Source of the DNA: Marmoricola sp. URHB0036
GTDB lineage: Bacteria; Actinomycetota; Actinomycetes; Propionibacteriales; Nocardioidaceae
Length of the DNA stretch: 64,000 nucleotides
Reading direction: 5' to 3'
Assembly: GCF_000426045.1 (NCBI RefSeq)
Contig: NZ_AUEP01000004.1
Span: 248,001-312,000 of the forward strand
Positions 1 to 29,101 of the stretch are shown piece after piece. Both the position numbers and the translations under genes were made by a program. Each line of letters begins with the position of its first letter. The stretch's first letter is position 1. The notes below the pieces were generated by a model. It was given only the letters and a program-made list of their open reading frames with translations, searched no databases and was not told the origin of the DNA.

Positions 1-63
1 GCTCGTGGGCAGGCCGATGTAGCCCAGCCCGATGACGGCCACGCCACGCTCGTAGGACGTCAC
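1..63 (-). CDS. wecC: UDP-N-acetyl-D-mannosamine dehydrogenase, N-terminus only (partial)
   Basis: The first 21 codons of a gene that runs off the left edge. The reading starts at GTG (complement of 61-63) and contains VAVIGLGYIGLP, the Rossmann dinucleotide-binding start of UDP-glucose/UDP-ManNAc/GDP-mannose dehydrogenases. The start overlaps the wecB stop by 3 bases (GTGA), so the two are translationally coupled. After an epimerase that makes UDP-ManNAc, the expected role is NAD-dependent oxidation to UDP-ManNAcA. The fragment alone cannot separate this from other nucleotide-sugar dehydrogenases; the neighbour decides the call. Confidence 0.72.
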   Translation of the reverse strand, partial: MTSYERGVAVIGLGYIGLPTS

Positions 64-1253: not shown

Positions 1254-1287
1254 GGGCCTGCCCTCCTCACGTCCGCGTCCCGAGACA

Positions 1288-3306
1288 TCAGGACCGTAAC
1301 GCAGCCCTCGCGCCTGACTGGTCGAGCAGGTCGCGCAACCGGCGTTCGAATCCGGGCGCGTCGGTGTCCTGCATCGTCCACACCTGCGGCGGATGCTGGC
1401 CGGCGGAGATCATCCGGGCCAGCTGCCCACCCTCGTGGAGGAGGACGACGTCGAGGTGCCGCGCCAGGGAGAGGAGCTCCGTCAGCGGCACCAGAGGGCG
1501 CACCGCGAAGACGTCGCCGAGACCGGCCCGCGTGACCTCGAGGCGCCGCTGGTCCCAGTCGCTCGTGAACACGTGCACGCGGATGCGTCGGCGGTCGCGC
1601 GGCGCCGTCCGGCGTACGACGTCCATCAGGTCGCCCAGCCTCGGGTCGGACCCCCAGGGTTCGAGGTGGCAGATGTCGATGACGCCGCTGCCGGAGACGT
1701 CGTACGTCGACTCCACGAGCGGGACGGACGTCAGCTCGTCGACCCGGGACAGCAGCCGGACGCGGTCGGCGAGGGCACTGTCACGGCAGTCGGCGAGCAT
1801 CGCCTCCAGGCCCTCGCGCTCGCCGAACGACAGCTGGTCGGCCAGGGCAAAGGTCACCAGCTGCACGAACTCGCCCAGCCCACACTCGGGGAGCTCGACG
1901 CCCTGCTCGTGCAGCGCGCGCCGCAGCTCACGGCCGAGCGCGTCCTCGGGAGCGGGGGTGTCGTCGACGGCGAAGGCACCGGGGTCGGACAGGTCGGCGA
2001 CCCAGAGCCGCTCCGGGCGACGCACCTTGAGCAGCGCTGCCGCGGCGTGGGTGGCCAGAGCCGTGGGACCGCTGTGCACGCGGCGGTAGGCGCCCTTGTC
2101 CTTCTCCCATGCCGCAGCCTGCTCCTCCACCTGCCAGGCGAACCGGCTGATCGAGGACCAACGGTCGGCGCCAGAAACCGCGTCGAGGAGCCGACGCCGA
2201 TCGACGAACTCCTCGGCCACCCGGTCCGAGCCGCGGTCGAGGACGGCGAACTCCCCGTCCTCGTTGCCGATCACGTCGGAGACGACCGCGCGACCGCGCA
2301 GGCGGATCGCCGGCAGCAGAGCGCTGGTGTCGAGGTGTCCTGACACCGTGCACATGAGGGTGAGGTCGCGGCCGAGTCCCTGGTTGGCCGAGCGCCACGG
2401 CACCCTGGCCAGCCCGCGGCCGCGAGCGTCGAGGACCACCCGGTGGTGCTCGTCGGGACGTTCGCGGAGATAACGGTTCATCCACTCGGCCTGCCCCACC
2501 CGCATCAGGTGTGCCACCCGCGCCACCACCGGGTCCTCGGTCTCGACCCGTTCGAGCGCGGCCAGGCAGTCGAGCCGCTGCGTCACCAGGAACTCGTAGT
2601 CGGCACTCTGGCGGCCGAGGCTGCCCTCCCGCAGGGAGCGGCAGTAGGCGACCTGCTCCTCGGTGCTGACGACGTGCAGCCGGAAGGGGTGACGGTTCAG
2701 CAGCTCGAGCCAGTAGACGAAGTCCTCGCCGCTGCGCAGGTTCTCGTCGTAGCGCAGGCTCCGGGCGATCCGGGTGGGCAGCAGCTTGCCGGCATTGAAG
2801 GAGATGGCGGCGACGACCTTGTCGCTGGACACCGTGCGCCCGGCGTACGGCAGCAGCCTGCGGCTCGCGTAGTTGTCGAAGTCGAGGTCACCGATCGGCG
2901 CCGTGCCGTCGTCGTGCCTGGCGCTGACCAGGGCGACCGGTACGACGCCCTCGCGCGCATGCCGCAACAGCACCTCGAGGAAGGGCGGCGTGATCCAGTC
3001 GTCGTCGTCGACGTAGGTGACATAGCTGCCGCGGGCCGCCCCCAGCCCGACGTTGCGCGCGTGCCCGAGCCCGCCCTGGCTGAGCTCGACCAGGCGCACC
3101 TGGAGGCTCGGGTGGGCGCGAGCGAACTCCCGGACCACGGCCGGCGTGGCGCACGGCGGTCCGTTCTGGACGACCAGCACCTCGAACCGCTCGGGAGGGA
3201 GGGTCTGGGTCGCCAGCGAGTCCAGGCAGCGGCCGATGCGGTCGGCGCCGTCGTACGTCGTGACCATCACGGTCACCTCAGGCACGGCGCGTACTGGTCC
3301 CGACAC
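1288..3306 (-). CDS. GT2 glycosyltransferase fused to a degenerate GT-B-like domain
   Basis: 672 aa, GTG start. Residues 10-240 are a GT2 (GT-A) domain: VTVMVTTYDGADR at the N-terminus and an acidic YVDDDDW motif at 100-103, expected to bind the metal-nucleotide sugar. The remaining roughly 400 residues resemble the C-terminal half of the paralogue at 5925-8036. There they look like a GT-B transferase, but here the donor-site part is weakly preserved (it ends ...HLDVVLLHEGGQ...). No membrane segment is evident, so it should act on the inner membrane face. It lies 13 bp after the GH16 gene and 34 bp before wecB in the same operon. Family-level confidence is good; donor, acceptor and activity of the second domain are unknown. 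Confidence 0.8.
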   Translation of the reverse strand: MSGPVRAVPEVTVMVTTYDGADRIGRCLDSLATQTLPPERFEVLVVQNGPPCATPAVVREFARAHPSLQVRLVELSQGGLGHARNVGLGAARGSYVTYVDDDDWITPPFLEVLLRHAREGVVPVALVSARHDDGTAPIGDLDFDNYASRRLLPYAGRTVSSDKVVAAISFNAGKLLPTRIARSLRYDENLRSGEDFVYWLELLNRHPFRLHVVSTEEQVAYCRSLREGSLGRQSADYEFLVTQRLDCLAALERVETEDPVVARVAHLMRVGQAEWMNRYLRERPDEHHRVVLDARGRGLARVPWRSANQGLGRDLTLMCTVSGHLDTSALLPAIRLRGRAVVSDVIGNEDGEFAVLDRGSDRVAEEFVDRRRLLDAVSGADRWSSISRFAWQVEEQAAAWEKDKGAYRRVHSGPTALATHAAAALLKVRRPERLWVADLSDPGAFAVDDTPAPEDALGRELRRALHEQGVELPECGLGEFVQLVTFALADQLSFGEREGLEAMLADCRDSALADRVRLLSRVDELTSVPLVESTYDVSGSGVIDICHLEPWGSDPRLGDLMDVVRRTAPRDRRRIRVHVFTSDWDQRRLEVTRAGLGDVFAVRPLVPLTELLSLARHLDVVLLHEGGQLARMISAGQHPPQVWTMQDTDAPGFERRLRDLLDQSGARAALRS

Positions 3307-3319
3307 GAGGTTCAGGGTG

Positions 3320-4693
3320 TCATCCCCAGGTGTGGACCCAGTCCACCGACATGGACGTGGAGCTCGACTTCATGGCCTTCAGCTCGTAGTCGGAGGTGAG
3401 CAGGCTGAGCACGAGCTCCTCGGTGCCGCTCGCCACCCGGGGCTGGGCCGTCGAGAAGGTCGGGATGCCGTCGACCCGGAAGACGTAGCCCGCCGGGGAC
3501 CACTGCACCGAGTAGACGTGCCACCCGTTGGACGGCGTCCGCCCCGCACCCAGGGCCGACTTCGCGGTGGTCTGGATGCCACCCGAGGTCGCCGTGCTGG
3601 AGCCCGTGGTGGCATGGACGAAGTTGCTGAGGCCGCCGTCGGTGCGGCCGTCGCCGAAGTACTCGGCCACGTCGATCTCCACACCGTTGGCCGCGTCCGC
3701 GCCGGCGGCCTGCATCCAGAACGAGCCGTGGGAGCCGGCTGCCTTCTGGAACAGCACGCGTGCGGCGTAGTACCCGTAGGGGCCGAAGGTTCGGCTCGGC
3801 GTCGCGCCCGCGGTCCCGATCATGCCGTTGTGCCAGAAGCCGTTCGGGCAGCTGGTGGTCGTCGGGTTGACGGCCTGCTTCTCGGCTCGCAACGTGACGG
3901 TCCCGTTGCCGAAGGTGACCATGTCGGGGTCGGTCTGGGCGCAGGTGCGCAGGCCACCCGGGAGCTGGGTGCGCGTCGCCCAGTTGGTGCTGCTCGTCGG
4001 GTCGGTGAACTCGTCACCGAACGAGCTCGAGACGGAGCTCGACTGCGAGGACCCACTGACGAGGTTTGCGGCCCCGGACCCCGGCGCGGCGACCACCCGG
4101 AAGGTCTCCGGTGACCCCGACGAGTCGGGGGCCGGCGCGAAGGTCGCCACTCCGGCGGAGCTCTGCTTCGCGGTGGCCACCTTGGTCCAGGCCCCGTTCG
4201 TCAGGCGGTAGAGGTCGACCGGGGTCCCGGGACGGGCGGGCACGAACAGCGCGGTGGCCGAGGCGATCGTGCTCCCGGTGTAGGCGTCCCGGACCGGTGC
4301 GCCGAACGTCAGGCTCGGGCGCACCCCGGTGACGTGCACGACGTTCGAGCTGCGGGCGGGGTACTTCCGCTTCTTGATCTTCACCAGTGGTGCCACGACT
4401 CGGTAGGGGGTGTTGGTCGCGGTCGCACGCACGGCGAAGGTGTACCTCCCGTAGAGAGCCGTCCTCGCCGCCTTCACCCGCACCCACCGTCCACCGAGGA
4501 GCTTCTGCAGCACCACCGTCCGCTTGGCCGGGGGCACCGCCCCTGCGACCGTGACCACCTCGCCGACGACCGGCACCGGTCGGGACACGCGGGCGGCGAA
4601 CGCCGCTGCAGATGCGGTCGGCTGCGTCAGTCCGACCAGGACGACGCTCAGGATCGTCAGGGCCAGGACCGAGACGAGCGGGCGAGATTTCAT
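3320..4693 (-). CDS. secreted glycoside hydrolase family 16 protein
   Basis: 457 aa from the ATG that opens a clear Sec signal peptide (MKSRPLVSVLALTILSVVLV, then TASAAA). An open frame continues upstream, but this start gives the export signal. A beta-rich Ig/SLAP-like region (about 35-200) precedes a GH16 jelly-roll domain (about 215-457). The catalytic motif EIDVAE is intact, with Glu339 as nucleophile and Glu344 as acid/base. GH16 enzymes cut beta-1,3/1,4-glucans, galactans and related exopolysaccharides, and some act as transglycosylases. Sitting among glycosyltransferase genes, this one is likely to trim or remodel the polymer the operon makes. The substrate is not predictable. Confidence 0.85.
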   Translation of the reverse strand: MKSRPLVSVLALTILSVVLVGLTQPTASAAAFAARVSRPVPVVGEVVTVAGAVPPAKRTVVLQKLLGGRWVRVKAARTALYGRYTFAVRATATNTPYRVVAPLVKIKKRKYPARSSNVVHVTGVRPSLTFGAPVRDAYTGSTIASATALFVPARPGTPVDLYRLTNGAWTKVATAKQSSAGVATFAPAPDSSGSPETFRVVAAPGSGAANLVSGSSQSSSVSSSFGDEFTDPTSSTNWATRTQLPGGLRTCAQTDPDMVTFGNGTVTLRAEKQAVNPTTTSCPNGFWHNGMIGTAGATPSRTFGPYGYYAARVLFQKAAGSHGSFWMQAAGADAANGVEIDVAEYFGDGRTDGGLSNFVHATTGSSTATSGGIQTTAKSALGAGRTPSNGWHVYSVQWSPAGYVFRVDGIPTFSTAQPRVASGTEELVLSLLTSDYELKAMKSSSTSMSVDWVHTWG

Positions 4694-4815
4694 GGCGAGG
4701 GGGCTCCGGAGATAGCGACCACCACGCCGACTGCAGCGACGCGACGTACGGCGACATTCAACCCTGCGCGCGGCCACAACGCGGCAAAACGACCAAATTT
4801 CGAGCCGCCGGGGTC
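4694..4815. other. intergenic spacer between the two GH16 genes
   Basis: 122 bp with no gene. The segment around 4783-4802 is AT-richer than its surroundings. A separate promoter for the secreted GH16 gene is possible, but no convincing -35/-10 pair was found. Confidence 0.3.
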
Positions 4816-5928
4816 TCAGTGTTGCCAGGCACGTACCCAGTCGACCTTCATCGTCGACGTCGTGGTGTTGAGCGCGGGCAGCTCCCAGTCGGAGGTGAGC
4901 AGGCTGAGGACGACGTACTCGCGGACCGCCACGCGCGCCTTGCTGGTCCGCATGGTCACGTGCCCGTCCATCCGGAAGACGTAGCCGCCGGGGTACCACT
5001 CGACCGACCACACGTGCCAGCCGGAGGACGGGGTGCGCCGCTTGCCCAACAGCTTCTTCACCGAGCGTCGGTTGCCGCCCACGCTGGTGAGCGCGCCCGT
5101 GGAGGAGGTCTTGTGGATGAAGCTGCTGATGCCGCCGTCGGACCGGTGGTCACCGAAGTACTCCGCCACGTCGATCTCGGCTCCGCCGCTCTCGGCCGCC
5201 TGCATCCAGAACGCGCCGTGCTGGCCGCGGCCGGCCTGGAACTTCAGACGTGCCGCGAACAGGCCATAACGCGCGCTGAACCCGGGCGTCGGCTCCCCGG
5301 TGCCGATCATGGCGTTCTTGAACACGCCGTGAGGACAGGCCCGCGTCTTTCCGCCGACGCGCCTGATCCCGAGGACCGCCTGCCCACTGCGCACGTGCAC
5401 CAGGGCAGGACCAGGAGTCGCACACTGGCGCCGTCCGGTCGCTTCCTGCACGCGGGTGCGCCACTTGCCGGGGTCGAGGCGGGTGCCGGCGAACTCGTCA
5501 CCCCAGACCTTGCGCCAGCGTGTGGAGGGCGTGGCCACCCGCGAGACCAGGCGACCACCGCGCCCGGACACGCTCACGGCGCGGTACTTCTGGCCGATCG
5601 ACGTCGTCGGACTGAGCGCGAAGGCGAACGTGCCGGCGCGGCTCTGCCGGCCGGAGATGGCCGTGCGCCAGACCGCTCCGTCCCAGCGCTGGATGCTGAC
5701 CCAGGCGCGCGGTCGGCGCGGCGAGAACGTGGCCACGCTCGCCACGAACGGCAGCCGGCTCAGCTGGATCGTGGCCCGAGCCGGCTTCGACCTCGCCGCA
5801 GCAGACGAGCTGGTCGCCGCGTTCGCGGGCTCGCGCCGGCCGGACTCGTCGTCCAGCTGCCCGCAGGCACTCAGCGCCGAGACGCACCCGAAGACCATGG
5901 ACATCAGCCAGGCCGTTCGCTTCTTCAT
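4816..5928 (-). CDS. GH16 family lipoprotein
   Basis: 370 aa. The N-terminus MKKRTAWLMSMVFGCVSALS is a lipoprotein signal with lipobox ALSAC, Cys22 being the lipidation site. A Ser/Ala linker follows, then a small beta domain (about 50-130) and a GH16 domain (about 135-370) with EIDVAEYFGD, catalytic Glu251 and Glu256. It is clearly paralogous to the secreted enzyme downstream: the catalytic strand and the C-terminal SLLTSD-to-VDWV segment match. The pair therefore provides one membrane-tethered and one released version of the activity. Its ATG overlaps the stop of the upstream glycosyltransferase (ATGA). Cleavage or transglycosylation of the locus polymer is the likely role; the substrate is unknown. 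Confidence 0.87.
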   Translation of the reverse strand: MKKRTAWLMSMVFGCVSALSACGQLDDESGRREPANAATSSSAAARSKPARATIQLSRLPFVASVATFSPRRPRAWVSIQRWDGAVWRTAISGRQSRAGTFAFALSPTTSIGQKYRAVSVSGRGGRLVSRVATPSTRWRKVWGDEFAGTRLDPGKWRTRVQEATGRRQCATPGPALVHVRSGQAVLGIRRVGGKTRACPHGVFKNAMIGTGEPTPGFSARYGLFAARLKFQAGRGQHGAFWMQAAESGGAEIDVAEYFGDHRSDGGISSFIHKTSSTGALTSVGGNRRSVKKLLGKRRTPSSGWHVWSVEWYPGGYVFRMDGHVTMRTSKARVAVREYVVLSLLTSDWELPALNTTTSTMKVDWVRAWQH

Positions 5929-8036
5929 GTGGAAACCCGCTCCCGAACCAGCTCACGAAGCACAGCGACCGCTTGGTCGACGTCCCCGAGGGTCGACTCG
6001 TACTCGAACTGCAGCGAGCTCATCACACTACCCGGCTCGGCGATCGCCCAGATCGGCGTACCGCTGCCGCGATAGTCGGACAGCTTCGAGGGCAGGTAGG
6101 GATTGACGTCGTGGGACCCGGACGTGCGGGCGTCGTCGAGCACCAGGACGTCGAAGTGGGTGGTGAGGTTGAGGAACTCGAGGACCGGGCGGTAGTGGTG
6201 AGCGGTGACCGTGCCGGCCAGGCCCAGCCGGGCCAGCTCGAGCGTGAGCCGGGACGGGTCGGGGGTGTAGACGCGCAGGCGCAGCCGCTCGCGTTCGTCC
6301 TGGCGAAGCCGTAGCAGCGCCTGGACGAGGTCGCCCAGGTGGCGCGTCTGGTAGAACGCCCCGAAGTACGCCAGCTGCACCGCGTCATCGGTGCGGTCGA
6401 GATCGACCGGTGCGAGCTCGTAGAAAGGGCGCGGAAGTACGGGATGAGCGTGCACCTGTGAGATCTCCATCGCCCGCTGCGCCAGCGCGGGGTCCTCGCA
6501 GTGCTCGATCATCAGCCGGCGTTGCTGGTCGTTGGTGAAGGTGATCTCGTCGGCCAGTGCGTAGACGAGGCGCTCGACCCACTCGAAGAGTCGCAGACCC
6601 TCCTCCGGGCGGAGCACCGGTTGGTGGCCGGCAGCGCACATGGCGTCGGCCAGCTCGTGGGAGAGCCAGTCCCAGGCGACCTCGTCGGGTCGCTCCTCGC
6701 CGAAGATGTTGAACCGCATCGGGTCGGAGAACTCCGCCGTCCAGCGGATCTCGGGCCGACGTGCCTTGACCAGCGCGGCCGCGTAGTGCGAGGAGACCGC
6801 CATGGCCCGGCTGTACAGCGTGGCGTAGGAGCCCTGCTCGGCCTCCCACCGGTCGACGGTGGCGACCGCCTCCTTCGCGAACCGCGACAGGTGTGTCCAG
6901 CCGGTGAAGCTGGCTGTCCCCCGGACCACGTGGTGGCGGCCCAGGAACTCACCGGGGACACGGAGCGACAGCGGGTCCACGTCGCGGATCCACGACAGGT
7001 CGTGGCTCACCACGTCGGTCACCACTCCCCGGCCGCGGATGCGCTTGGCGGCGACCAGACCGCTGGTGTCGTTGTCGGGTGGGAAGCAGTAGCAGATGGC
7101 GAGGTCGCGGGCCAGCCCGGCGTTCACCGTCGACCACGGCACCTCGCGCACGCCCATCGTCTCGGCCTCCGCCACGACGCGGGGACGTTGGTCCGGGTGG
7201 GCGCGGAGATGGCTGTTGATCCCGGACGCCAGGTCCTCGGCCACCGCGCGGGCCACTCGCGCCACGGAGGGGTCGGTGCGCGGCACGCCCTCGAGAGCCC
7301 GCATGCACTCGAGTCGTCGTACGACGTCGAAGAACCCGTCATCACCCTGGCTGCTGCTCGGGCGCGTCATGCGGTGGTACGTCGCGTCGTCGCCGGCTCG
7401 CAGCACGCGGAAACGGAACTGCCGTTGCGCGAACAGGGACAGCCAGTAGGCGTGGTCCGCACCGCTGCGCAGGCCGGGGTCGACGACTGCGGAGCGGGCG
7501 AGCTCGGTGCTCACCAGGGTGCCGGTGTGGGAGCCGAACAACGCAGGCAGCTCGCTGGCCAGCAGCGTCCGACCTGCGACGCGCCGAAGAGCGGGGTCGG
7601 TCGACCCACGCCCGTCCGGTTCGGCGACCACCGCCACCGTCACGACGCCCGGATCGGCTTCCTCGAGCAAGGCCTCGAGGTAGTCAGGGCCCGGGCGGTC
7701 GTCGGGGTCGACGACGGTCAGGTAGTCGCCCCGCGCGGCCGCGATGCCGACGTTGCGCGCCTGGCCTTCGTCGGGCCCGCGCGCCTCCACCATGCGGAGG
7801 TTCAGGCGGGAGTGCTTCGCTCGCAGATCGTCCACCAGCGCGGGGATCTCGGCATCGTTGCCCGGGTGGACGACGACCACCTCGACGCGGTCTGGGGACA
7901 CCGTCTGCGCCACGAGCGAGGCGAGGCACTCGCGCACTCGCTGCGCGCCTCGGAACGTCGGGACCACTACGCTGACCGATGGACTCACCAGCCGCGGGGC
8001 GGGTGAGGTAGATCCTCCACCACGGGTGATCCCCAC
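5925..8036 (-). CDS. dual-domain glycosyltransferase (GT2 plus GT4-like GT-B)
   Basis: 703 aa from GTG 8036, chosen because AAAGGAGG lies at 8040-8047 just upstream; GTG 7988 (687 aa) is the alternative. The N-terminal GT2 domain opens VSVVVPTFRGAQR and has a VVDPDD metal-binding motif. The C-terminal 400 residues end in a GT-B C-lobe: LAYFGAFYQTRHLGDLVQAL is a strand/helix typical of GT4, followed by LPSKLSDYRGSGTPIWA, a sugar-nucleotide grip. The fusion could add two sugars in turn, or alternate to build a polymer. It is probably the first gene of the operon, divergent from 8079. No transmembrane segment is seen. The order GT-A then GT-B is clear; specificity is unknown. Confidence 0.82.
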   Translation of the reverse strand: MGITRGGGSTSPAPRLVSPSVSVVVPTFRGAQRVRECLASLVAQTVSPDRVEVVVVHPGNDAEIPALVDDLRAKHSRLNLRMVEARGPDEGQARNVGIAAARGDYLTVVDPDDRPGPDYLEALLEEADPGVVTVAVVAEPDGRGSTDPALRRVAGRTLLASELPALFGSHTGTLVSTELARSAVVDPGLRSGADHAYWLSLFAQRQFRFRVLRAGDDATYHRMTRPSSSQGDDGFFDVVRRLECMRALEGVPRTDPSVARVARAVAEDLASGINSHLRAHPDQRPRVVAEAETMGVREVPWSTVNAGLARDLAICYCFPPDNDTSGLVAAKRIRGRGVVTDVVSHDLSWIRDVDPLSLRVPGEFLGRHHVVRGTASFTGWTHLSRFAKEAVATVDRWEAEQGSYATLYSRAMAVSSHYAAALVKARRPEIRWTAEFSDPMRFNIFGEERPDEVAWDWLSHELADAMCAAGHQPVLRPEEGLRLFEWVERLVYALADEITFTNDQQRRLMIEHCEDPALAQRAMEISQVHAHPVLPRPFYELAPVDLDRTDDAVQLAYFGAFYQTRHLGDLVQALLRLRQDERERLRLRVYTPDPSRLTLELARLGLAGTVTAHHYRPVLEFLNLTTHFDVLVLDDARTSGSHDVNPYLPSKLSDYRGSGTPIWAIAEPGSVMSSLQFEYESTLGDVDQAVAVLRELVRERVST

Positions 8037-8078
8037 ATTCCTCCTTTCGGGTCGCCTTCCACAGCCAGGGAGTTCCAC

Positions 8079-9029
8079 GTGACGATAGACGATGGCCGCG
8101 GCACCCACCGTCGCGTCGCGGTGGGCCACAGCCGCGAGTCGGCTGCCGCTGCGTTCGGTCGACAGGACGCGGACCTGTTCGTCACCAGCTATGCCGACCT
8201 CGAGGAGGAGGTCGACCCCGACCAGCTGGTGGAGCTCGGCCTCGTCCTCGACGGGGACTTCACCGCGGCGCTGGAGGCCGCCTGTGCCCGGCTCGTCGCC
8301 GGCGGTGCGGCGCTGCGCATCGCCGTACGACCCGGTGCGCACGCCGGCCTGGACGACCTGCTCGATCGGAGCGGCGTCACCATCACCGACGCGGAGCGTG
8401 TCGACGAGTCGGTGCTGCTGAGCCTGGCGCCGTCCACCGCTGACCACACGGGTCAGGTCGGCGCGGTCCTGGCGGCGCTCGACGCCGGCGCAGACGCGGG
8501 CACCGACGCTGCGCCGGAGCGGCCGGTGCAGCGTTCGGTCCACCACGTCGGCAAGAGCCGGCCGACGCCGAAGCTGCTGTCGACGCTGGCCCGGGCCGAC
8601 CGCTGGCGCGCGAGTCGGCGGCGACGGCTGGTTCTCGGCGTGACCGCGCTGGTGGTCGTGCTGGCGCTGCTCCTGCCCGGGCTGCTGCCGGACTCACCCC
8701 AGGTGCTGGTGAGCATCGCGCTACCGCTCCTGATCGTGCTGGTCGCGGTCGGTACGGCGGTGACGGCGTACACCGTGCTGCTGCTGGCCCGGCAGGTGCA
8801 CGTGCAGACCGGTCGACTGGAGCGGATGCTGCTGCGCAACCGCGAGGTCGTGCACGAGCGCTCCACCGCGCTGGCCAAGCGCCTCGACGCCGTGGAGGAG
8901 GCGCAGTCGCGGCTGCCGTTCCTGGAGCAGTACGTCGAGGCGGTGGCCGAGGGCAGCGCGGCCTCCTCGACGCGCCTGCGCGACCTGCTCGACCGGCTCG
9001 ATGCCGAGGACGCCACCGCGCGCGACTAG
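8079..9029 (+). CDS. unknown membrane protein with two TM segments and a C-terminal coiled coil
   Basis: 316 aa, not recognised. GTG start with CAGGGA upstream. Residues 25-120 form a compact, probably alpha/beta, cytoplasmic region. 184-203 and 208-236 are two strongly hydrophobic helices making a hairpin. 240-312 is a charged heptad-rich helix (LERMLLRNREV...RLRDLLDRLDAED) that should form a coiled coil. It is divergently transcribed from the polysaccharide operon with only 42 bp between starts, so both may share control. The topology recalls chain-length or assembly regulators of polysaccharide export, but no Wzz proline-rich motif is present, so that is only a possibility. Confidence 0.6.
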   Translation: MTIDDGRGTHRRVAVGHSRESAAAAFGRQDADLFVTSYADLEEEVDPDQLVELGLVLDGDFTAALEAACARLVAGGAALRIAVRPGAHAGLDDLLDRSGVTITDAERVDESVLLSLAPSTADHTGQVGAVLAALDAGADAGTDAAPERPVQRSVHHVGKSRPTPKLLSTLARADRWRASRRRRLVLGVTALVVVLALLLPGLLPDSPQVLVSIALPLLIVLVAVGTAVTAYTVLLLARQVHVQTGRLERMLLRNREVVHERSTALAKRLDAVEEAQSRLPFLEQYVEAVAEGSAASSTRLRDLLDRLDAEDATARD

Positions 9030-19792: not shown

Positions 19793-19979
19793 CTGGACCC
19801 GGTGCGACGGCCACGGCGCCTGCGCCGAGCTGCTGCCCGAGCTGCTGACCACCGACGACTGGGGCTTCCCGCTGGTCACCGGGGACGAGCGGGACCCGCA
19901 GGTGACCGTCTCGCTCGCGGGGCACGCCCGCCGGGCGGTGAAGGCCTGCCCGTTGCAGGCGCTGAGGCTCGTGGACTAG
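19776..19979 (+). CDS. ferredoxin, single-cluster three-cysteine type
   Basis: 67 aa. Cys10, Cys16 and Cys58, with CxxxxxC near the N-terminus and CP at the end, is the pattern of [3Fe-4S] ferredoxins such as those serving actinobacterial P450s. The second position, where a fourth Cys would sit, is filled by His/Gly (DGHGAC). The acidic surface (DDWG, GDERD) suits partner docking. The start lies inside the NuoF-like gene (17-bp overlap) after AAGGAG. No P450 is nearby, so the expected partner is the NuoF-like flavoprotein. Its stop overlaps the converging methyltransferase stop (CTAG). Confidence 0.88.
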   Translation: MRIHVDWTRCDGHGACAELLPELLTTDDWGFPLVTGDERDPQVTVSLAGHARRAVKACPLQALRLVD

Positions 19980-20578
19980 GAGGCCGGCCGGGACTCCAGC
20001 ACGCGAAACCCCTTGGCGCTGGACAGCTTCTCGGTCGGGTAGCCCTGCTCGCCCAGCCAGCTGGCCAGCGAGTCCGAGCCGAGGTTCTTGCCGACCACCA
20101 TCAGCGCCCGGCCCTCGGGGCGCAGCCGCGGCAGCCAGGCGAGCAGCAGCTCGTGGAGGGCGTCCTTGCCGACCCTGATCGGGGGGTTCGACCAGATCTC
20201 GTCGTACGACGCAGCGGGGTCGACCTCGTCCGGCAGCACCGCCGTGAACCGGTCGGCCACCCCGAGGCGCTCGGCGTTCTCGCGGGCCAGCAGCAGGGCC
20301 CGCTCGTTGACGTCGACCGCCGTCACCCGGGCCTCCGGCACGGCGACCGCGATGGCCAGCCCGATCACGCCGTAGCCGCAGCCGAGGTCGAGCACCTCGC
20401 GTGCGTCCTCGGGAGGTGCCGCCTCACGCAGCAGCACGCCGGTGCCGATGTCGAGCCGACCCTGGGCGAACACCCCGGAGCCCGAGGTCAGCTCCAGCCA
20501 GTGCCCCCAGACGTTCGTGCGGACCGGCACCCGCTTGAAGGGAGTGGTCGGGTCCGCGGTGAAGTAGTGCTCGTCCAC
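19976..20578 (-). CDS. class I SAM-dependent methyltransferase (RsmC-like)
   Basis: 200 aa, one Rossmann methyltransferase domain. GTG start with AAGGAGG at an ideal distance. SAM-binding motif I LDLGCGYGVIG near 64, acidic VTAVDVNERAL motif II, and IWSNPPIRVGK, the NPP(Y/F/I) motif of N2-guanine and N6-adenine methyltransferases. The order and the N-terminal GVFAQGRLDIGTGVLL resemble the catalytic half of RsmC (16S rRNA G1207), without the second domain. An rRNA target is likely but the exact base is not shown. Convergent with the ferredoxin gene. Confidence 0.85.
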   Translation of the reverse strand: MDEHYFTADPTTPFKRVPVRTNVWGHWLELTSGSGVFAQGRLDIGTGVLLREAAPPEDAREVLDLGCGYGVIGLAIAVAVPEARVTAVDVNERALLLARENAERLGVADRFTAVLPDEVDPAASYDEIWSNPPIRVGKDALHELLLAWLPRLRPEGRALMVVGKNLGSDSLASWLGEQGYPTEKLSSAKGFRVLESRPAS

Positions 20579-21058: not shown

Positions 21059-21982
21059 TCAGTCGCGGTGCGCCAGTCGCTCCGCGACGTAGTCCCGCAC
21101 GGTGTCCTCGACCTCGTGCGCGGGCTCCCAGCCGGTCACCCGGCTCAGCCGGGCGTGGTCGCCGGTGATCGACCGCGGGTCGTTGGGCCGGATCCGCGAC
21201 TCGTCGACCGACCGCTCGAGGTCCTGGAGCCCGAGGCCGGCCAGCGCCAGCTCGCACAGCTCGTCGCCCGTGCGGGCCCGTCCGCTGCACACGTTGAACA
21301 CGCGGTCGTCGGCGAAGTCCGGCCCGAGCTCGGCCTCGAGCAAGAGGCGGTAGGCGTGGGCGACGTCGCGTACGTCGGTGTAGTCGCGCTCCGTGCTGAG
21401 GTCGCCGGTGCGCATCGGCCGACCCTCGGCGGCGGCCGAGAGGGCCTCGGTGACGAGGTCGGGCAGGACGAAGCCCTCACCCTGGCCCGGGCCGATGTGG
21501 TTGAACGGCCGGGCGACGACGAGGTCGAGGCCGCGTCCGGCGTAGTAGGCGACCAGGTTCTCCACCAGCAGCTTGCTGACGACGTACGGCGAGTTGGTCG
21601 AGACCCGTCCCGACTCGTCGATCGGCTGCGGCTGGAACGCGTCGTACACCGCGCCGCTGCTGACCACGAGCACCCTGGCTCGGGAGCCGGCCTCCTGCAT
21701 CGCCTCACACATCGTGGTGACCATGGCGCTGTTGGTCTCGACGTACCGCTGGGGCGCCGAGAAAGATGGTCCCACCGCCGAGAGGCCGGCGAGGTGAACG
21801 ACCGCGTCGACGTCCTCGAGCGCGGCCGGCCACTCCTGGGTCAGGTCGCAGGAGAGGAACGGCACGCCGAGGTCGGCGGTCTCCAGGTTGCTCACGGCGA
21901 CGGGGTCGTGCCCGGTCTCCAGCAGCTCACGAACGAGGTGCGGGCCGACGAAGCCGGTCGCCCCCGTGACAGCGACACGCAT
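21059..21982 (-). CDS. rmd: GDP-4-keto-6-deoxy-D-mannose reductase (GDP-D-rhamnose synthase)
   Basis: 307 aa short-chain dehydrogenase/epimerase. NAD(P)-binding GATGFVG at 7-13, catalytic Ser-Tyr-Lys as VVSSGAVY and YVVSK, and the RMD-type C-terminus RDYTDVRDVAHAYRLLLE, VFNVCSG, SRIRPNDPRSI. With gmd only 8 bp upstream, it should reduce the C4 ketone of the Gmd product to GDP-D-rhamnose. An epimerase-reductase making GDP-L-fucose is the alternative, but the RPND and VCSG signatures fit Rmd better. Last gene of the second sugar operon. Confidence 0.85.
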   Translation of the reverse strand: MRVAVTGATGFVGPHLVRELLETGHDPVAVSNLETADLGVPFLSCDLTQEWPAALEDVDAVVHLAGLSAVGPSFSAPQRYVETNSAMVTTMCEAMQEAGSRARVLVVSSGAVYDAFQPQPIDESGRVSTNSPYVVSKLLVENLVAYYAGRGLDLVVARPFNHIGPGQGEGFVLPDLVTEALSAAAEGRPMRTGDLSTERDYTDVRDVAHAYRLLLEAELGPDFADDRVFNVCSGRARTGDELCELALAGLGLQDLERSVDESRIRPNDPRSITGDHARLSRVTGWEPAHEVEDTVRDYVAERLAHRD

Positions 21983-21990
21983 CGTCGGAG

Positions 21991-22980
21991 TCAGCGCTTC
22001 TGCAGGGCGACGTCGTGCTCGACCATCAGCCGGACCAGGCCGGGGAGGTCGTAGTCCCGCTTCCAGCCCAGCACCCGCTCGGCCTTGGCGGAGTCACCGA
22101 GCAGGATGTCCACCTCGGCCGGGCGCATGAAGGCAGGGTCCTGCTTGACGTAGGGACGCCAGTCATCGACGCCGATTTCGGCGAACGCGAGGGCCAGGAA
22201 GTCCTCGATCGAGTGGGTCGCGCCGGAGGCGAGCACGAAGTCGTCGGGCTCGTCGTGCTGGAGCATCTGCCACATCCCGCGGACGTAGTCGCCGGCGTAC
22301 CCCCAGTCCCGCTTGGGCCACAGGTCGCCGAGCACGACGTGGTCGGCGGTGCCGGCGTCGATGCGCGCGACGGCATCGGTGATCTTGCGGGTCACGAACT
22401 CGAGTCCGCGCCGTGGCCCTTCGTGGTTGAACAGGATCCCGGTCGCCGCGAACATGTCGTAGCTCTCGCGGTAGTTGCGGGTGATCCAGTGCCCGTAGAG
22501 CTTGGCGACGCCGTACGGGCTGCGCGGGTGGAACAGCGAGTCCTCGTTGTAGCCGGTGCCGGGGCGGTTGTAGTCGAGACCGCCGAACATCTCCGAGGTG
22601 GAGGCCTGGTAGAAGCGGGCCCTGTCCTTGAAGCCGGCGATCCGGATCGCCTCCAGCAGGTTCAGCACTCCCTTGCCGGTGATGTCCGCGGTGAGCTGCG
22701 GGTTGCGGAAGGAGAAGCCGACGTGGCTGACCGCGGCGAGGTTGTAGACCTCGTCGGGCTGGGAGGCCTCGACGGCCTGGATCAGCGAGGTCTGGTCGGT
22801 GAGGTCGGCCTCGATCAGGGTGACGTAGGGGAACTCGTCGATGACCGCCTCGCGGCGCGCGTTGCGCTGGCCGCGGATCAGGCCGAAGACCTCGTAGCCC
22901 TTCTCGTGGAGCAGCTCGGTGAGGTGCCCGCCGTCCTGCCCGGTGATCCCGGTGATGAGGGCTCGCTTGGCGTCCGCCAC
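21991..22980 (-). CDS. gmd: GDP-mannose 4,6-dehydratase
   Basis: 329 aa. Converts GDP-D-mannose to GDP-4-keto-6-deoxy-D-mannose, the precursor of GDP-D-rhamnose and other deoxysugars. Typical signatures: GITGQDGGHLTELLHEKGY, YNLAAVSHVGFSF, TSEMFGG with catalytic Thr/Glu, YGVAKLYGHWITRNYRE (Tyr/Lys pair) and a binding loop read as FNHEGPRRGLEF, where most homologues have NHESPRRG. GTG start with AAAGGAA upstream. It leads rmd in the operon and follows the large glycosyltransferase by 70 bp. Confidence 0.94.
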   Translation of the reverse strand: MADAKRALITGITGQDGGHLTELLHEKGYEVFGLIRGQRNARREAVIDEFPYVTLIEADLTDQTSLIQAVEASQPDEVYNLAAVSHVGFSFRNPQLTADITGKGVLNLLEAIRIAGFKDRARFYQASTSEMFGGLDYNRPGTGYNEDSLFHPRSPYGVAKLYGHWITRNYRESYDMFAATGILFNHEGPRRGLEFVTRKITDAVARIDAGTADHVVLGDLWPKRDWGYAGDYVRGMWQMLQHDEPDDFVLASGATHSIEDFLALAFAEIGVDDWRPYVKQDPAFMRPAEVDILLGDSAKAERVLGWKRDYDLPGLVRLMVEHDVALQKR

Positions 22981-23050: not shown

Positions 23051-25339
23051 CTACCGGGCGAGCCGGTCGTAGTACTTGACGGGTCGCTCGTCGGCGCCGA
23101 CCACCACGAGGGTGGCGAGGTAGCGCAGGCCGGCTGCCCGCACCGGTCGGCCGTCGAGCTGGAGGAAGAACTCCACGTCGTGGACGCCCCTGCGGGTGCC
23201 CTCGACCGCGAGCGACACGAACCCCGACTCGTAGCTGTCCCAGCGGTCGCTGCGTCGCCGGATCCCGGTCTCGTGCACGGGTCCGTCGCCGACCCGGTAG
23301 GAGAGGCCGATGTCGTGCGCGGCCGTCCCCCGAGCCAGCAGCTGGTAGGCGATGTCGAGGGAGACGTGGGTGCCCTCGGCCACCGTCATGAGCTGGGGCA
23401 GTCCGGCGACCAGCAGCTGCACGGCGTCCCCGGCGAACCGGATGGCGCCGTGGGCGAGGTCGTTGGCCCTCAGCTGGCGCTCGTTGCGGAGCTGGAGGGT
23501 CGGGTTGCGCTCGAAGGCCGGCTCGACCGTCGTACGGACCGCTCGCTTGTCGAACAGGGAGGGGTGGGTGGTCACCGCGTGGTCGAGGTACGCCGACCAG
23601 CCACCGATCCGGCTCGTTCCGGCCTCCCGGTCGGCCCAGGCACCGGCCTCCCGGAGCAGCTGCTTGTCGACGACCTGCGGCCGGTCTCCGGCGTACCCGA
23701 GCAGCTCGAGGCCCCGCGGTCCGAGGATGCTCGCCGTGGCCCGCTGCCGTTCGTCGAGGTCGTCCTCACGGCGGGTCCAGCGGGTCAGCTCGCCGAGGTG
23801 GTACGCCGTCATCCGCCCCTCCGGCGTGACGAACGCGTCGAGCGTGACCTCGCCAGACGGGAGGTGGGTCTCGTCGAGCAGCACGAACACGTCGTCGACC
23901 TCGTCCAGCTCGGCCAGCCCGGTCGGCAGCGTGGGGTCGTCCCACCCACGTCCGGCCGGCAGGAGACTCCGGTCGACCGGGACGACCGGGACCCGCGTCG
24001 GTGTCTTCCGCACCCTCGCGAGCGCTCGCCGCGGAGCCACCACGACGAGCTCGGTGGCGAGGTCGGTGCGCTCGCCCCAGGCAGCGAGAGCGCGCCGGAG
24101 CCGGGCCGGGTGGTCACCCAGCACGACCAGCTGGAGCCGCTCCGGGCGGCCCTCGGCAAGGCGTCGCCCGTCCGCTGGCAGGCCTCGCAGGGCGGCCTCG
24201 ATCGTCCGCGTCACCGTGTCCCACGACAGCGGACGGAAGCTCTCCCGGATGTGCCGTTCACGGGCAGCGAGCAGGTCGGGGTCGCCGAGGTACTGCGCCA
24301 GCGTCTCCGCGACCTCGGGGACCAGGTTGTGCCAGACGAAGTCGCAGGCGTCGCCACCCACCTCCGGCATGCCGCTGCCGTACGACGCGACGGTGACCCG
24401 GCCGTGCGCCAGTGCCTCCGCGATCGGGAGCCCGTAGCCCTCGTAGCGGGAGAGGTAGAGGCAGGCCGTCGCCCGGCGGTAGAGCTCGGCGAGCAGGGCG
24501 TCACTCGGTGCCTGGATCCAGTGCACCCGTTCGCCGTACGACGGATGGCCGGTGATCGTGGCCACCGTGTCGTCCCGGATCCAGCCCTTGCGACCGGCCA
24601 GGACCAGGTGGACGTCCGGGTACTCCTCGGCGATCTCGTCGAAGGCCCGGAGTGCGACGAGGTGCTCCTTGCGCGGCTCGATCGTGCCCACGAACAGCAC
24701 GAACCGCCCGCCGGTCAACGGCTCGAGCAGCGCCAGCTCGTCGTCGCCGGGCGCGGAGACCTCCGGCAGGTCGCAGCCGAGCCGGGTGACCAGGGTCGGG
24801 ATGTGGCGTCGGACGTCGAGCTGTTCCTTGAGGTCGAGCAGGTCACGCTCGGCGCTGCGCGAGTCCGACATCACCAGGTCGCTCCAGGTGAGCACCGCCG
24901 ACAGGTACACCACCCAGTTGGCCGAGGTCGTCTCGTGCACGACCTCCGGCACCTTCAGCGGGACCAGGTCGTAGACGTAGCTCACGATGGTCACGCCCGC
25001 GTCCTTCAGACGGGGGTACAGCGTGGACCGCTTCAGCGGCGAGTTCCAGGCCGAGTCGAGGTCGAGGAACACGTCCGTCGTACCGAACGCGCCGATGTCG
25101 CGCCGACCGACCACCTCCGGCTCGTCGGTGGCACCGGCCAGCACCGCGAGCATCGAGGTCGTGTCCAGCTCGAGGTAGAGGTGCTCGATCGGGTCGAACC
25201 GGAGCATGAGCAGCTCCAGCTCGTCATCGGCCGCTGCGGCGAGCCGGGGCAGCACCTGCCCGACCACGCGCTGGATCCCCGTGCGCGCGCCGTGACGCAA
25301 CAGGTCGGAGACGTCGACGAAGACGGTCGTCCGGCTCAC
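23051..25339 (-). CDS. large glycosyltransferase: GT4 domain plus two C-terminal modules
   Basis: 762 aa. GTG start overlapping the upstream stop (GTGA); the frame is open further upstream, but that belongs to other genes. Residues 1-370 form a GT-B/GT4 transferase: GTRTGIQRV-like acceptor lobe near 18, FVGTIEPRKEH at 216-226 and the donor-binding pair E300/E308 in EGYGLPIAE. Residues about 385-620 form a second region with DDVFVLLDE and a WADREAG...WSAYLDH segment, faintly like Stealth-type phosphotransferases. The last 120 residues are a predicted beta-sandwich (LDIAYQLLARG...FFLQLDGR), like Wzt C-domains. It probably assembles a rhamnose-containing glycan with gmd and rmd. The later modules are tentative. 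Confidence 0.78.
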   Translation of the reverse strand: MSRTTVFVDVSDLLRHGARTGIQRVVGQVLPRLAAAADDELELLMLRFDPIEHLYLELDTTSMLAVLAGATDEPEVVGRRDIGAFGTTDVFLDLDSAWNSPLKRSTLYPRLKDAGVTIVSYVYDLVPLKVPEVVHETTSANWVVYLSAVLTWSDLVMSDSRSAERDLLDLKEQLDVRRHIPTLVTRLGCDLPEVSAPGDDELALLEPLTGGRFVLFVGTIEPRKEHLVALRAFDEIAEEYPDVHLVLAGRKGWIRDDTVATITGHPSYGERVHWIQAPSDALLAELYRRATACLYLSRYEGYGLPIAEALAHGRVTVASYGSGMPEVGGDACDFVWHNLVPEVAETLAQYLGDPDLLAARERHIRESFRPLSWDTVTRTIEAALRGLPADGRRLAEGRPERLQLVVLGDHPARLRRALAAWGERTDLATELVVVAPRRALARVRKTPTRVPVVPVDRSLLPAGRGWDDPTLPTGLAELDEVDDVFVLLDETHLPSGEVTLDAFVTPEGRMTAYHLGELTRWTRREDDLDERQRATASILGPRGLELLGYAGDRPQVVDKQLLREAGAWADREAGTSRIGGWSAYLDHAVTTHPSLFDKRAVRTTVEPAFERNPTLQLRNERQLRANDLAHGAIRFAGDAVQLLVAGLPQLMTVAEGTHVSLDIAYQLLARGTAAHDIGLSYRVGDGPVHETGIRRRSDRWDSYESGFVSLAVEGTRRGVHDVEFFLQLDGRPVRAAGLRYLATLVVVGADERPVKYYDRLAR

Positions 25340-25695
25340 GTGAAGTGCACCCGACGACGACTGTTGGCGAACGTCTTCGAGCCGAGGATCTGGTCCAGCA
25401 GCTCCTCGCGGGTCCTGGTGCCCTCGCGGAGCCAGCGCAGCCGGTGGTTGAGCTGCTTGGTGTTCGGTGCGACGTCGAGCAGCACGAGGTAGCAGCTCGC
25501 GATGAAGGACCGGTCGTCCTCGATGGCGAGCAGCGCGGCGCGGGGGACGTCGACCACGGACAGGTGGGCCACCGAGGGGTCGCGCAACGGCGGCGGTCGC
25601 AGCTTGCGCGCCGTGGCCTGCTCGGTGACCAGCGCCGCCAGGCGGGCGTAGACCTCGTCGAACTGCTGACCGGCCGTGCCCATCGACTCGGTCAC
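25336..25695 (-). CDS. DUF4214-like small protein
   Basis: 119 aa from GTG 25695, which overlaps the preceding 67-aa gene stop (GTGA). Residues about 55-110 (RSFIASCYLVLLDVAPNTKQ, then LRWLREGTRTREELLDQIL, then SKTF) match the helical pattern of DUF4214, a phycobilisome-linker-like repeat found in surface proteins and beside or inside exopolysaccharide glycosyltransferases. Its stop overlaps the glycosyltransferase start. It may act as a small adaptor for that enzyme. A longer in-frame open stretch upstream is dismissed because it has no start with ribosome site and overlaps the small gene. Confidence 0.68.
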   Translation of the reverse strand: MTESMGTAGQQFDEVYARLAALVTEQATARKLRPPPLRDPSVAHLSVVDVPRAALLAIEDDRSFIASCYLVLLDVAPNTKQLNHRLRWLREGTRTREELLDQILGSKTFANSRRRVHFT

Positions 25696-25895
25696 CGTCG
25701 GCCCAGCCTGCCGGCCCTGGCCGCGGCCCGCTGGACCAGGGAGCCGAGCCGCGAGCGGCTGCGCCGACGCCGGAACGAGCGATCGACCGCGGACGACGCG
25801 TCGGGCTGCACCGACACGGCACCGAAGGTGCCGCCCTTGGCGTCCAGGATCCGGCGATGCAGGGCCGTCAGGTCCCGGGGACCTGCTCCGGTCAT
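25692..25895 (-). CDS. small basic protein, 67 aa, unknown
   Basis: ATG 25895 with GGAGAG eight nt upstream. The N-terminal half is mixed (LTALHRRILDAKGGTFGAVS). The C-terminal half is strongly basic: SFRRRRSRSRLGSLVQRAAA and a final RAGRLGRR, suggesting contact with nucleic acid, acidic lipid or a partner surface. It overlaps the DUF4214-like gene by GTGA, and is the first of three coupled genes ending in the 762-aa glycosyltransferase. No family recognised. The ribosome site and both overlaps support it as a real gene. Confidence 0.62.
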   Translation of the reverse strand: MTGAGPRDLTALHRRILDAKGGTFGAVSVQPDASSAVDRSFRRRRSRSRLGSLVQRAAARAGRLGRR

Positions 25896-25951: not shown

Positions 25952-26779
25952 CTACAGCGGACCACGCACCCGCCGGGAGGCGTGCGCCCGCACCGCGAGC
26001 TCGTCGTCCGGCGGGTACCGCACCTCCTCCAGGGTGAGCCCGTGCGCGTGCACCACCGTCACCGCCGGGTCGCGCACACCGGCAGCGAGCACGGCGTGCG
26101 CCCACTCCGGCTCCCGCCTCCCCTCGCCCACGGAGAGCAGGCAGCCCACCAGTGCCCGCACCATGTTGTGGCAGAAGGCGTCGGCCCGGACCGCCGCCAC
26201 CAGCAAGCCCCCGTCCCGGCTCCAGCCGAGGTCGAGCAACGTCCTGGTCGTGGTGGCACCCTCGCGCTTGCGGCAGAAGGCGGCGAAGTCGTGCTCCCCG
26301 ACCAGGAGGGCCGCGGCGGCGTTCATCGCCACCTCGTCGAGGGCCCGTGGCCAGGCGAGGACGTGCCCCCGGGTCAGCGGATCCACCGAAGCCGCCCGGT
26401 CTGCCACCCGGTAGGCGTAGCGCCGCCACAGCGCCGAGAAGCGTGCGTCGAAGCCGTCGGCCGCCTCGGCGACGGCGTGGACCCGGACATCCAGGTCGAG
26501 CACCCCGTTGAGCCGGCGTACCAGCGCGTCCTCGGGCGGCTCCGGGCTCCGTCCGGCCGCGGCCACCACGGCGTCGGCGTCGACGTCCACGTGGGCCACC
26601 TGGCCGCGCGCGTGCACCCCGGTGTCGGTGCGACCGGCCACGGTGACGGACGTGCCCGTCGTGCGCAGCACCGTGTCCAGTGCCTGCTCGAGCTCTCCCT
26701 GCACGGTGCGCAGGCCGTGCTGCCGGGCCCAGCCGTGGAAGGCGGATCCGTCGTAGGCGAGGTCGATGCGCAGCCGCAC
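25952..26779 (-). CDS. truA: tRNA pseudouridine(38-40) synthase
   Basis: 275 aa from GTG 26779, with TAGGTT 7 nt upstream (leaderless). TruA isomerises uridines 38-40 of the tRNA anticodon arm. The catalytic Asp is in [25 protein letters not shown] opens the first domain; [16 protein letters not shown] and [14 protein letters not shown] are conserved in the second. Often near rplQ in bacteria, it is here separated from it by two genes on the other strand. Confidence 0.95.
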
Positions 26780-26786
26780 GGCCGCC

Positions 26787-26822: not shown

Positions 26823-27422
26823 GTGCGCCGCCTGCCCCTCCGACAACTGGTGCTCCTCGTCGTCGGGTGTCTCGTCCTCGGCACCGGTGTCGCCATGCTG
26901 CTCACCGCCGACCTCGGCTCCGACGGCTTCTCCACGCTGGTCAACGGAACGGCGATCAGGACCGGGCTGCCGTTCTTCGTGGCCAACCTGGGCATCAGCC
27001 TCGCCTTCCTGCTCCTGGCGGCGGCTCGCCGGTTGCTGCCGGGGGTCGGCACCGTGGTGCAGATCGTGCTGGTGGGCCTGGTCGTCGACCGGTTGCTCCC
27101 GGTGCTGGACAAGCCCGACAGCGTCCTCGGGCAGGCGCTGCTCCTGACGGCAGCCTTCCCGGTGCTGTCGCTGGGGATTGCCGCCTATCTCGGCGCGCAT
27201 CTCGGCGCCGGCCCCATCGAGGCAGCGGCCCTCGCCTGGGATCCGCCGCTGCCCTTCAAGTGGAGCTACAGCGTGGCGCAGTTCGGTGGCGCCGCCCTCG
27301 GGTGGCTGCTCGGCGCCACCATCGGACCTGGCACCGTCGCGGTGATCCTGCTGCTGGGTCCGGCCGTCGACCTGACCAGCCGGCTGCTGGGCCTTGACGT
27401 CCACCAGAGGATGGAGTCATGA
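26823..27422 (+). CDS. YczE/YitT-like integral membrane protein
   Basis: 199 aa from GTG 26823, with about five to six hydrophobic helices. The pattern [20 protein letters not shown] near the N-terminus, the repeated [13 protein letters not shown] and the C-terminal [17 protein letters not shown] are typical of the YczE/YyaS membrane family, whose function is mostly unknown. It overlaps the next gene by ATGA, linking it to the oxidoreductase. A role in transport or redox sensing is only a guess. Confidence 0.75.
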
Positions 27423-29101
27423 CCGCCGAAGCCGTCATCCCCCGCAAGCCGCTGATCGTGCTGGTCGCGCCGTACCACGCCGACGTGCTGGAGTCGCAGT
27501 TCGCCCGCTACGCCGCGGACTACGACCTCCGCACCACCCACAGCGCAGCCGAGACCGACGAGCTGCTCTCGTCACTCGGCCCCGATGAACACGTCGCCCT
27601 GCTGGTGTCCGAGACGGAGCTTCCCGACGGATACGTCCTGCAGGCCGTTCATGGCTGGCGCAAGCGGGTGCCGACCGCCCGCCGGATCATCGCCGCCCAC
27701 GTCGACCACTTCCGCCAGCGCGCGGAGGAGCTGCGGCACGGCCTGGCCACCGGCAAGTACGACGCCTACCTGCTGATGCCGCGCGGGGTGCGTGACGAGG
27801 AGTTCCACACGGCCGTCACCGAGCTGCTCTCCGACTGGGGGTCGACCGCACCCGTCGTACCGACGGCGCACATCGTGTCGGCCGGACTCGACCCCCTGAC
27901 CGTGGCGCTGCGCGACTTCGCCTACCAGATGGGCATGCCGGCCCAAGTGGTGTCGCCCGACTCGCCCACGGGACGTGAGGTACTGGCCCGCCACGGGGGC
28001 GACGGCGAGCTGCCCGTGGTCTCGGCCCTCGGCGGGAAGACGACCCAGCCGCGCTCGGTGCGCGAGCTCGCCGCGACCCTCTACGGCGCTCCCGACGAGA
28101 TCGACGTCGACAAGATCGTGGATCTCGTCGTGGTCGGTTCCGGCCCGGCCGGGCTGGCCGCCTCGGTGTACGGCTCCTCCGAGGGCCTCACGACGGTCGT
28201 CCTCGAGTCGGGGGCCATCGGCGGTCAGGCCGGCACCAGCTCGATGATCCGCAACTACCTCGGCTTCCCGCGCGGCATCTCCGGCATGCGGCTGGCGCAG
28301 CGGGCCCGCAACCAGGCGATCCGCTTCGGGACCAAGTTCTTCACCGGCTGGCCGGTCGAGTCGCTGGTGCTCGGCAGCAACGGCGACCCGCACCGGGTCG
28401 TCACGGAGGGCGGGGAGGTACGCGCCCGGGCCGTGGTGATCGCGACCGGAGTCGCCTACCGCCGCCTCGGCGTCGACCCGATCGAGGACCTGGTGGGGCT
28501 CGGCGTGCACTACGGCGCCGCGGTGAGCGCGGCGCAGGAGATGGAGGACCGCGACGTGTTCGTCGTCGGCGGCGGCAACTCCGCAGGACAGGCGGCGCTG
28601 CACCTGGCCCGGTTCGCCCGCTCCGTCACCCTGCTCGTACGACGCCCCGACGTCTCGGCCACCATGTCGGACTACCTGATCCGCGAGATGAAGTACCTCC
28701 CGCGCATCCGCATCCAGGAGTGCGCCGAGGTGGTCGACGGTGGCGGCGAGGGGCGCCTGGAGTGGATCGGGGTACGCGACCTGAACGCCGGCGAGGTGAC
28801 CCGCCACGAAGCGGGCGGCCTCTTCCTGCTCATCGGCGCCGCACCGCAGTGCGACTGGCTGCCGCCGGAGGTGATCCGCGACGAGCACGGCTTCGTGCTC
28901 ACCGGTCGCGACGTGCCCAAGCACTCCTGGGCCGACGGACTGCCGCCCGCCAACCTGGCGACGCCGGTGCCGGGTGTGTTCGCTGCCGGCGACATCCGGT
29001 CGGGTTCGATGAAGCGCGTCGCCGCCGCGTCGGGCGAGGGCGCGAGCGTCGTACCACTCGTGCACGCCCACATCGCCGACGCCACGGCCGTCACGCGCTG
29101 A
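27419..29101 (+). CDS. receiver-like domain fused to thioredoxin-reductase-like FAD oxidoreductase
   Basis: 560 aa. Residues 10-140 look like a response-regulator receiver (LIVLVAPYHADVL; helix/strand order kept, phospho-acceptor position uncertain: LLVSETELPDG). Residues 230-560 are a TrxR-like flavoprotein: FAD motif VVGSGPAGLAAS (GSGPAG at 240-245), NADPH motif VVGGGNSAGQAAL, and AAGDIRSGSMKRVAAASGEG at the C-terminal FAD site. Where TrxR has its CxxC, this reads GGQAGTSSM, so it cannot reduce disulfides by the normal route. Related fused proteins are known in actinobacteria; the substrate is unknown. Confidence 0.85.
   Translation: MTAEAVIPRKPLIVLVAPYHADVLESQFARYAADYDLRTTHSAAETDELLSSLGPDEHVALLVSETELPDGYVLQAVHGWRKRVPTARRIIAAHVDHFRQRAEELRHGLATGKYDAYLLMPRGVRDEEFHTAVTELLSDWGSTAPVVPTAHIVSAGLDPLTVALRDFAYQMGMPAQVVSPDSPTGREVLARHGGDGELPVVSALGGKTTQPRSVRELAATLYGAPDEIDVDKIVDLVVVGSGPAGLAASVYGSSEGLTTVVLESGAIGGQAGTSSMIRNYLGFPRGISGMRLAQRARNQAIRFGTKFFTGWPVESLVLGSNGDPHRVVTEGGEVRARAVVIATGVAYRRLGVDPIEDLVGLGVHYGAAVSAAQEMEDRDVFVVGGGNSAGQAALHLARFARSVTLLVRRPDVSATMSDYLIREMKYLPRIRIQECAEVVDGGGEGRLEWIGVRDLNAGEVTRHEAGGLFLLIGAAPQCDWLPPEVIRDEHGFVLTGRDVPKHSWADGLPPANLATPVPGVFAAGDIRSGSMKRVAAASGEGASVVPLVHAHIADATAVTR

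Follow-up and report, generated by a model that had tools for sequence, protein, structure and literature searches.

The window, a 64,000-nt stretch of the genome of Marmoricola sp. URHB0036, carries a cassette of five consecutive genes that encode a small basic protein, a DUF4214-domain protein, a large glycosyltransferase, a protein resembling GDP-mannose 4,6-dehydratase and a short-chain-type epimerase/dehydratase (SDR). The cassette sits between two genes, presumably truA and an rsmC-like methyltransferase gene (Table 1). The gmd-like protein matches PF16363 at E 8e-117 and aligns with positions 1-340 of the 342 of TIGR01472, where it scores 372 bits against an equivalog cut-off of 415; we would therefore call it GMD-like, short of an equivalog assignment. 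The profile matches of the SDR are not specific to a GDP-sugar reductase. As a whole this is probably a surface-sugar or glycan cassette. The window holds a second polysaccharide-like region at 60-8546, with a UDP-GlcNAc 2-epimerase, two GT2 enzymes and two neighbouring GH16-domain proteins.

Table 1. Genes of the cassette and its two borders, with positions in the window.
Feature	Positions	Strand	Remarks
67-aa basic protein, probable gene	25692..25895	(-)	ATG start; 15 Arg, 1 Lys, 4 Asp
119-aa DUF4214-domain protein	25336..25695	(-)	GTG start; domain match residues 60-111
762-aa GT4 glycosyltransferase	23051..25339	(-)	GTG start; GT4 domain and a second part
GDP-mannose 4,6-dehydratase-like (gmd)	21991..22980	(-)	PF16363, TIGR01472
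NAD-dependent epimerase/dehydratase (SDR), possibly the reductase that works with gmd	21059..21982	(-)	Family matches
truA, upstream-side cassette border	25952..26782	(-)	26782 is the limit of the reading frame used
rsmC-like methyltransferase, downstream-side cassette border	19976..20578	(-)	MTS domain

The original prediction had placed the two small genes ahead of the glycosyltransferase gene, each joined to the next by GTGA, and we confirm both the coordinates and the overlaps: at either junction the GTG of the downstream gene overlaps the preceding TGA in a 4-nt motif. Longer frames do mask the small genes, as had been stated; the three genes are covered by own-phase upstream extensions of 245, 209 and 923 aa and, on the opposite strand (plus), by frames of 230 and 857 aa. 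The further claim, that stop-start coupling implies a fixed stoichiometry of the products, does not follow, since exact 4-nt overlaps are frequent and occur in 9 of 46 same-strand neighbour pairs, both junctions studied included (the pairs are likely neighbouring genes compiled from ORF tables covering parts of the window, rather than a full annotation). Overlaps of this kind indicate coupled translation within an operon but carry no information on stoichiometry.

As open frames are expected by chance in high-GC DNA, codon use was scored against 29 likely genes of the window, partly picked by composition, each gene being left out when its own segments were scored. The 119-aa gene scores 0.434, close to the in-frame mean of 0.456 (sd 0.148, 264 segments), and none of 1320 out-of-frame segments reaches this value; the frame is clearly coding. 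The score of the 67-aa frame, 0.094, is the highest among its six frames and exceeds 95.7% of out-of-frame segments, yet it falls under 99.2% of the in-frame ones. Along this frame, the windows of codons 1-30 and 11-40 score 0.32 and the Arg-rich window 31-60 scores -0.03. An origin of the two small genes by fusion or frameshift was rejected, because the 119-aa frame scores as non-coding (-0.50) upstream of its GTG and because its homologue in G252, a genome from another genus of the same family, begins at the same place.

The low rank of the 67-aa frame among in-frame segments would suit a reading in which it is a leader RNA or a chance frame and the 119-aa gene starts alone, at GTG 25695 or at ATG 25683. 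Homologues of the 67-aa protein were likewise absent from the 38 other genomes searched, from plasmids at E 1 and, by tblastn at E 0.1, from 16 fetched genomic stretches, and its start pairs with the 16S tail at -9.2 kcal/mol, a value reached by 11% of random positions, the inner ATG 25683, four codons into the 119-aa gene, pairing at -8.2, better than the GTG. Against this reading, the frame is the best of its six and comes close to the codon score of genes over its first 40 residues, an AGGAG motif lies seven nt ahead of its ATG, the overlap is exact, and GTG 25695, which is backed by an equal N-terminal length in G252, pairs weakly on its own. We regard a non-coding 67-aa frame as unlikely, and the frame as probably a real gene. 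Searches of Pfam, NCBIfam and PHROGs assign it to no family, and it probably encodes a lineage-specific basic peptide, whose function we can only propose (below).

Shine-Dalgarno pairing is weak at both overlapped starts, with -6.7 kcal/mol for the 119-aa gene and -6.2 kcal/mol for the glycosyltransferase gene, values equalled by 32% and 37% of random positions (n = 2000). The DUF4214 gene of G252, which has no overlapping gene ahead, starts with a pairing of -13.5, and set beside it the weak starts of the window fit coupling. The overlapped glycosyltransferase gene of G252 nevertheless has a strong predicted pairing of -17.5 and could thus start without coupling. For the window, it is plausible that ribosomes re-initiate after the upstream frame.

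G252 is also the genome that decides how much of the gene arrangement is shared. Among 294 genomes of the family, our own included, the 119-aa protein has a strong match in two, its own genome and G252 (E 3.7e-11), and these same two match the glycosyltransferase at E 1e-20 (E 4e-121 in G252). There, a DUF4214 gene of 118 aa (L034 7545-7901) overlaps the glycosyltransferase gene (L034 7898-12058) by ATGA. Between window and G252 the DUF4214 proteins are 33-35% identical (35% over 100 residues) and the glycosyltransferases 36-40%, and both align without gaps from the first residue, which supports the GTG starts in the window. The surroundings differ, the neighbours in G252 not being those of the window. 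Upstream lies a gene for an 862-aa GT4 protein ending at 7401, 143 nt before the DUF4214 gene, and this gap is too short to hold the 67-aa frame; the 862-aa protein does not significantly resemble the 67-aa protein, and tblastn at E 0.1 gives no match to the latter on the 15-kb stretch of G252. Hence the trio does not recur: G252, the one further genome recovered, has the glycosyltransferase and DUF4214 genes but no 67-aa frame, which for this member is the outcome named beforehand as refuting the prediction. What stands of the earlier interpretation is an overlapping DUF4214-glycosyltransferase pair in two genera, supported by this one other genome.

The glycosyltransferase, at E 1e-20, is absent from the other 214 of the 215 genomes of G252's genus and occurs within the order in 1 of 293 genomes, its own. 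In the class it is matched in 11 of 345, namely its own genome and ten whose GT4 matches are weaker (E between 9e-29 and 2e-21) and may lie outside this subfamily; at six of these ten loci, viewed by eye on one strand and unoriented, no DUF4214 neighbour was seen, an observation of little weight. The first look of this survey scored three to four candidates per genome and may miss distant homologues. Weak matches to the 119-aa protein, 29 in 28 family genomes at E 0.005-0.1, were taken as chance. Scanning genome contigs with six patterns gave 174 stretches and with two patterns 114, none of them confirmed as relatives; the scan with two patterns is a weak negative, and G252 was missed by both. 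Viral contigs scanned with two patterns from the glycosyltransferase alignment gave none.

The site of the cassette is variable. truA is present in 22 of 24 genomes of the genus, our own included, and its downstream stretch was taken from 15 of the 21 truA-bearing relatives. In all 15, truA and the rsmC-like gene lie on the same stretch, 18 to 5561 nt apart (match ends), and in none does the gap hold any of the five cassette proteins at E 0.1; a weak SDR match (24-26%) lies outside the gap in one relative (L082). As none of the five genes is found in the relatives' gaps, the cassette is additional cargo that the window genome carries here. The gap in eight of the 15 carries a flavoprotein gene whose product is 65-69% identical to that of window 27419..29101, and in the other seven it measures 18-536 nt. 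The flavoprotein gene lies on the opposite side of truA in the window as compared with those eight relatives, a local rearrangement. Other cargo seen by eye in the relatives' gaps includes an aldo-keto reductase and a peptidase-like protein.

The 119-aa protein had been labelled DUF4214-like, and for a divergent member of the family this label holds: it scores 22.6 bits against PF13946, just under the gathering cut-off of 23.2, and its G252 homologue scores 36.6, above it. The structure model of the 119-aa protein consists of helices only, at low confidence (mean pLDDT 56), and the search of solved structures gave no match at E 1 for the G252 protein and a single chance match (E 0.96) for that of the window. 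The domain is rare among genomes of the class as judged by sequence search, with 0 of 216 at E 1e-4, a threshold of which the window genome itself falls short and a draw in which G252 was presumably not included. Five plasmid records pass E 0.1, none of them strongly (0.08-0.09), and three were opened; the four DUF4214 proteins examined there are all of the RTX type, each with four matched stretches plus RTX repeats, and are probably secreted, so that a role as transferase subunit is no general property of the domain. Unlike these proteins, that of the window is one small stand-alone domain. In two of the three opened plasmid regions (L046 and L047, both from Rhodobacterales) the RTX-type DUF4214 genes adjoin glycosyltransferase genes, and on a Thioclava plasmid such a gene also lies beside gmd. 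One plasmid RTX-type protein matches the phycobilisome linker family over its DUF4214 part (E 1e-6). Our literature search found DUF4214 rarely mentioned, and found no paper combining it with glycosyltransferases or with phycobilisomes; one report suggests that a DUF4214 protein is an anchored extracellular protein (PMC11970703). The 119-aa gene seems to be an accessory gene of modest importance, of a kind that has been little described.

It is conceivable that the 119-aa gene is a mere passenger, brought along when one cassette was transferred and serving some unrelated purpose, for example as an exported surface protein, as both genomes may share a single transfer and the plasmid DUF4214 proteins examined are RTX-type. 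However, the pair stayed together at 33-40% identity, in differing surroundings and despite a fusion of the glycosyltransferase to a WbdD-like part in G252, and the 119-aa protein has no signal-peptide-like start as judged by eye. We consider a passenger role quite unlikely.

The glycosyltransferase belongs to GT4 by its Glycos_transf_1 domain (PF00534, 64.9 bits against a cut-off of 26.4; Pfam matches within residues 209-366), and its similarity to other GT4 enzymes spans about residues 1-400. The second part (about 400-760) has no family match in Pfam or NCBIfam and nothing under E 0.4 among solved structures, and the single-sequence structure model of the protein is unusable (pLDDT 39). The glycosyltransferase matches 179 plasmid records, and five of the 15 matches listed are annotated wbdA, the best of these at E 4e-25 and about 29% identity across residues 6-388 (tblastn). 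Since other GT4 genes outscore wbdA (Rhizobium 4e-31, Methylocystis 4e-30), the term "WbdA-like" is a loose one. The G252 enzyme is longer, 1386 aa, and its residues 954-1317 match the methyltransferase/kinase WbdD (E 6.5e-35 to 4azw), with methyltransferase domains above the Pfam cut-off. This WbdD-like part is matched in 35 of 231 family genomes, a draw presumably without G252, at no better than 6e-10, and the 37 listed matches all fall inside query residues 19-191, the methyltransferase side.

These similarities bear on the original prediction that the 67-aa protein, the 119-aa protein and the glycosyltransferase form one complex of fixed stoichiometry, which can be extended by casting the 67-aa protein as membrane anchor and DUF4214 as adaptor. 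The model for this is E. coli O9a, where WbdA is brought to the membrane by the C-terminal part of WbdD (PMC3482155). Overlaps are present at both junctions, and residues 49-66 of the 67-aa protein form an Arg-rich amphipathic stretch (moment 0.74, attained by 4.2% of local shuffles); in G252 the 862-aa protein ends in a basic amphipathic stretch (0.78, 2.2%) and another lies within the 1386-aa glycosyltransferase (0.83, 0.3%), where the WbdD-like part is fused, a part for which a search of the window genome at E 1e-5, scoring 8 of 18 candidates, gave no match. But the 67-aa gene is not retained in G252, 4-nt overlaps are common and Arg-rich stretches readily become amphipathic. A fixed three-part complex appears very unlikely; a shared complex as such is possible.

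Based on our data we propose, as a reading with about an even chance of being right, that the 119-aa DUF4214 protein and the GT4 glycosyltransferase are a co-translated pair in a variable polysaccharide cassette, with DUF4214 as an accessory and the 67-aa gene as a leader. The gmd-like enzyme and the SDR would make a GDP-6-deoxyhexose, GDP-D-rhamnose or similar, and the GT4 domain, as expected from its family, would transfer a GDP-linked sugar to the growing glycan on the inner side of the membrane. The DUF4214 protein, to go by its pairing, may be an accessory subunit, small and helical, with the glycosyltransferase, its glycan or its membrane site as binding partner. The 67-aa gene would be a leader specific to this lineage, from which ribosomes pass to the following start through stop-start coupling, and the amphipathic, Arg-rich end of its product may make contact with the membrane. 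A lone small DUF4214 protein kept beside one glycosyltransferase in two genera offers a compact system in which the role of the domain can be tested, although the finding would be ordinary should the pairing be an accident of one shared cassette.

The comparison with known systems is closest for WbdA and WbdD. WbdA carries two GT4 domains, whereas the glycosyltransferase of the window has no GT4 match past residue about 390, and unlike WbdA systems the five-gene cassette holds no ABC exporter. The likeness to WbdA of E. coli O9a and related loci lies in the alignment of the GT4 region and in the gmd-like GDP-sugar gene that follows the glycosyltransferase gene; the likeness to the WbdA/WbdD couple lies in the fusion found in G252, and the glycosyltransferase of the window ends before such a region. 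By analogy one may speculate that the 67-aa and DUF4214 proteins are stand-ins for the recruiting region of WbdD, but it is a long shot that a stand-alone DUF4214 protein, aided by a tiny basic membrane peptide, replaces this region as the dedicated assembly partner of a polymerase like WbdA, in what is probably a Gram-positive organism; if true, it would be the first molecular role for DUF4214. O-antigen loci of Gram-negative bacteria are where WbdD is known, and in E. coli O9a it caps the chain (PMC3482155), whereas the family of G252 looks Gram-positive. The WbdD-like fusion in G252 hints at a wider spread of this chain-ending machinery.
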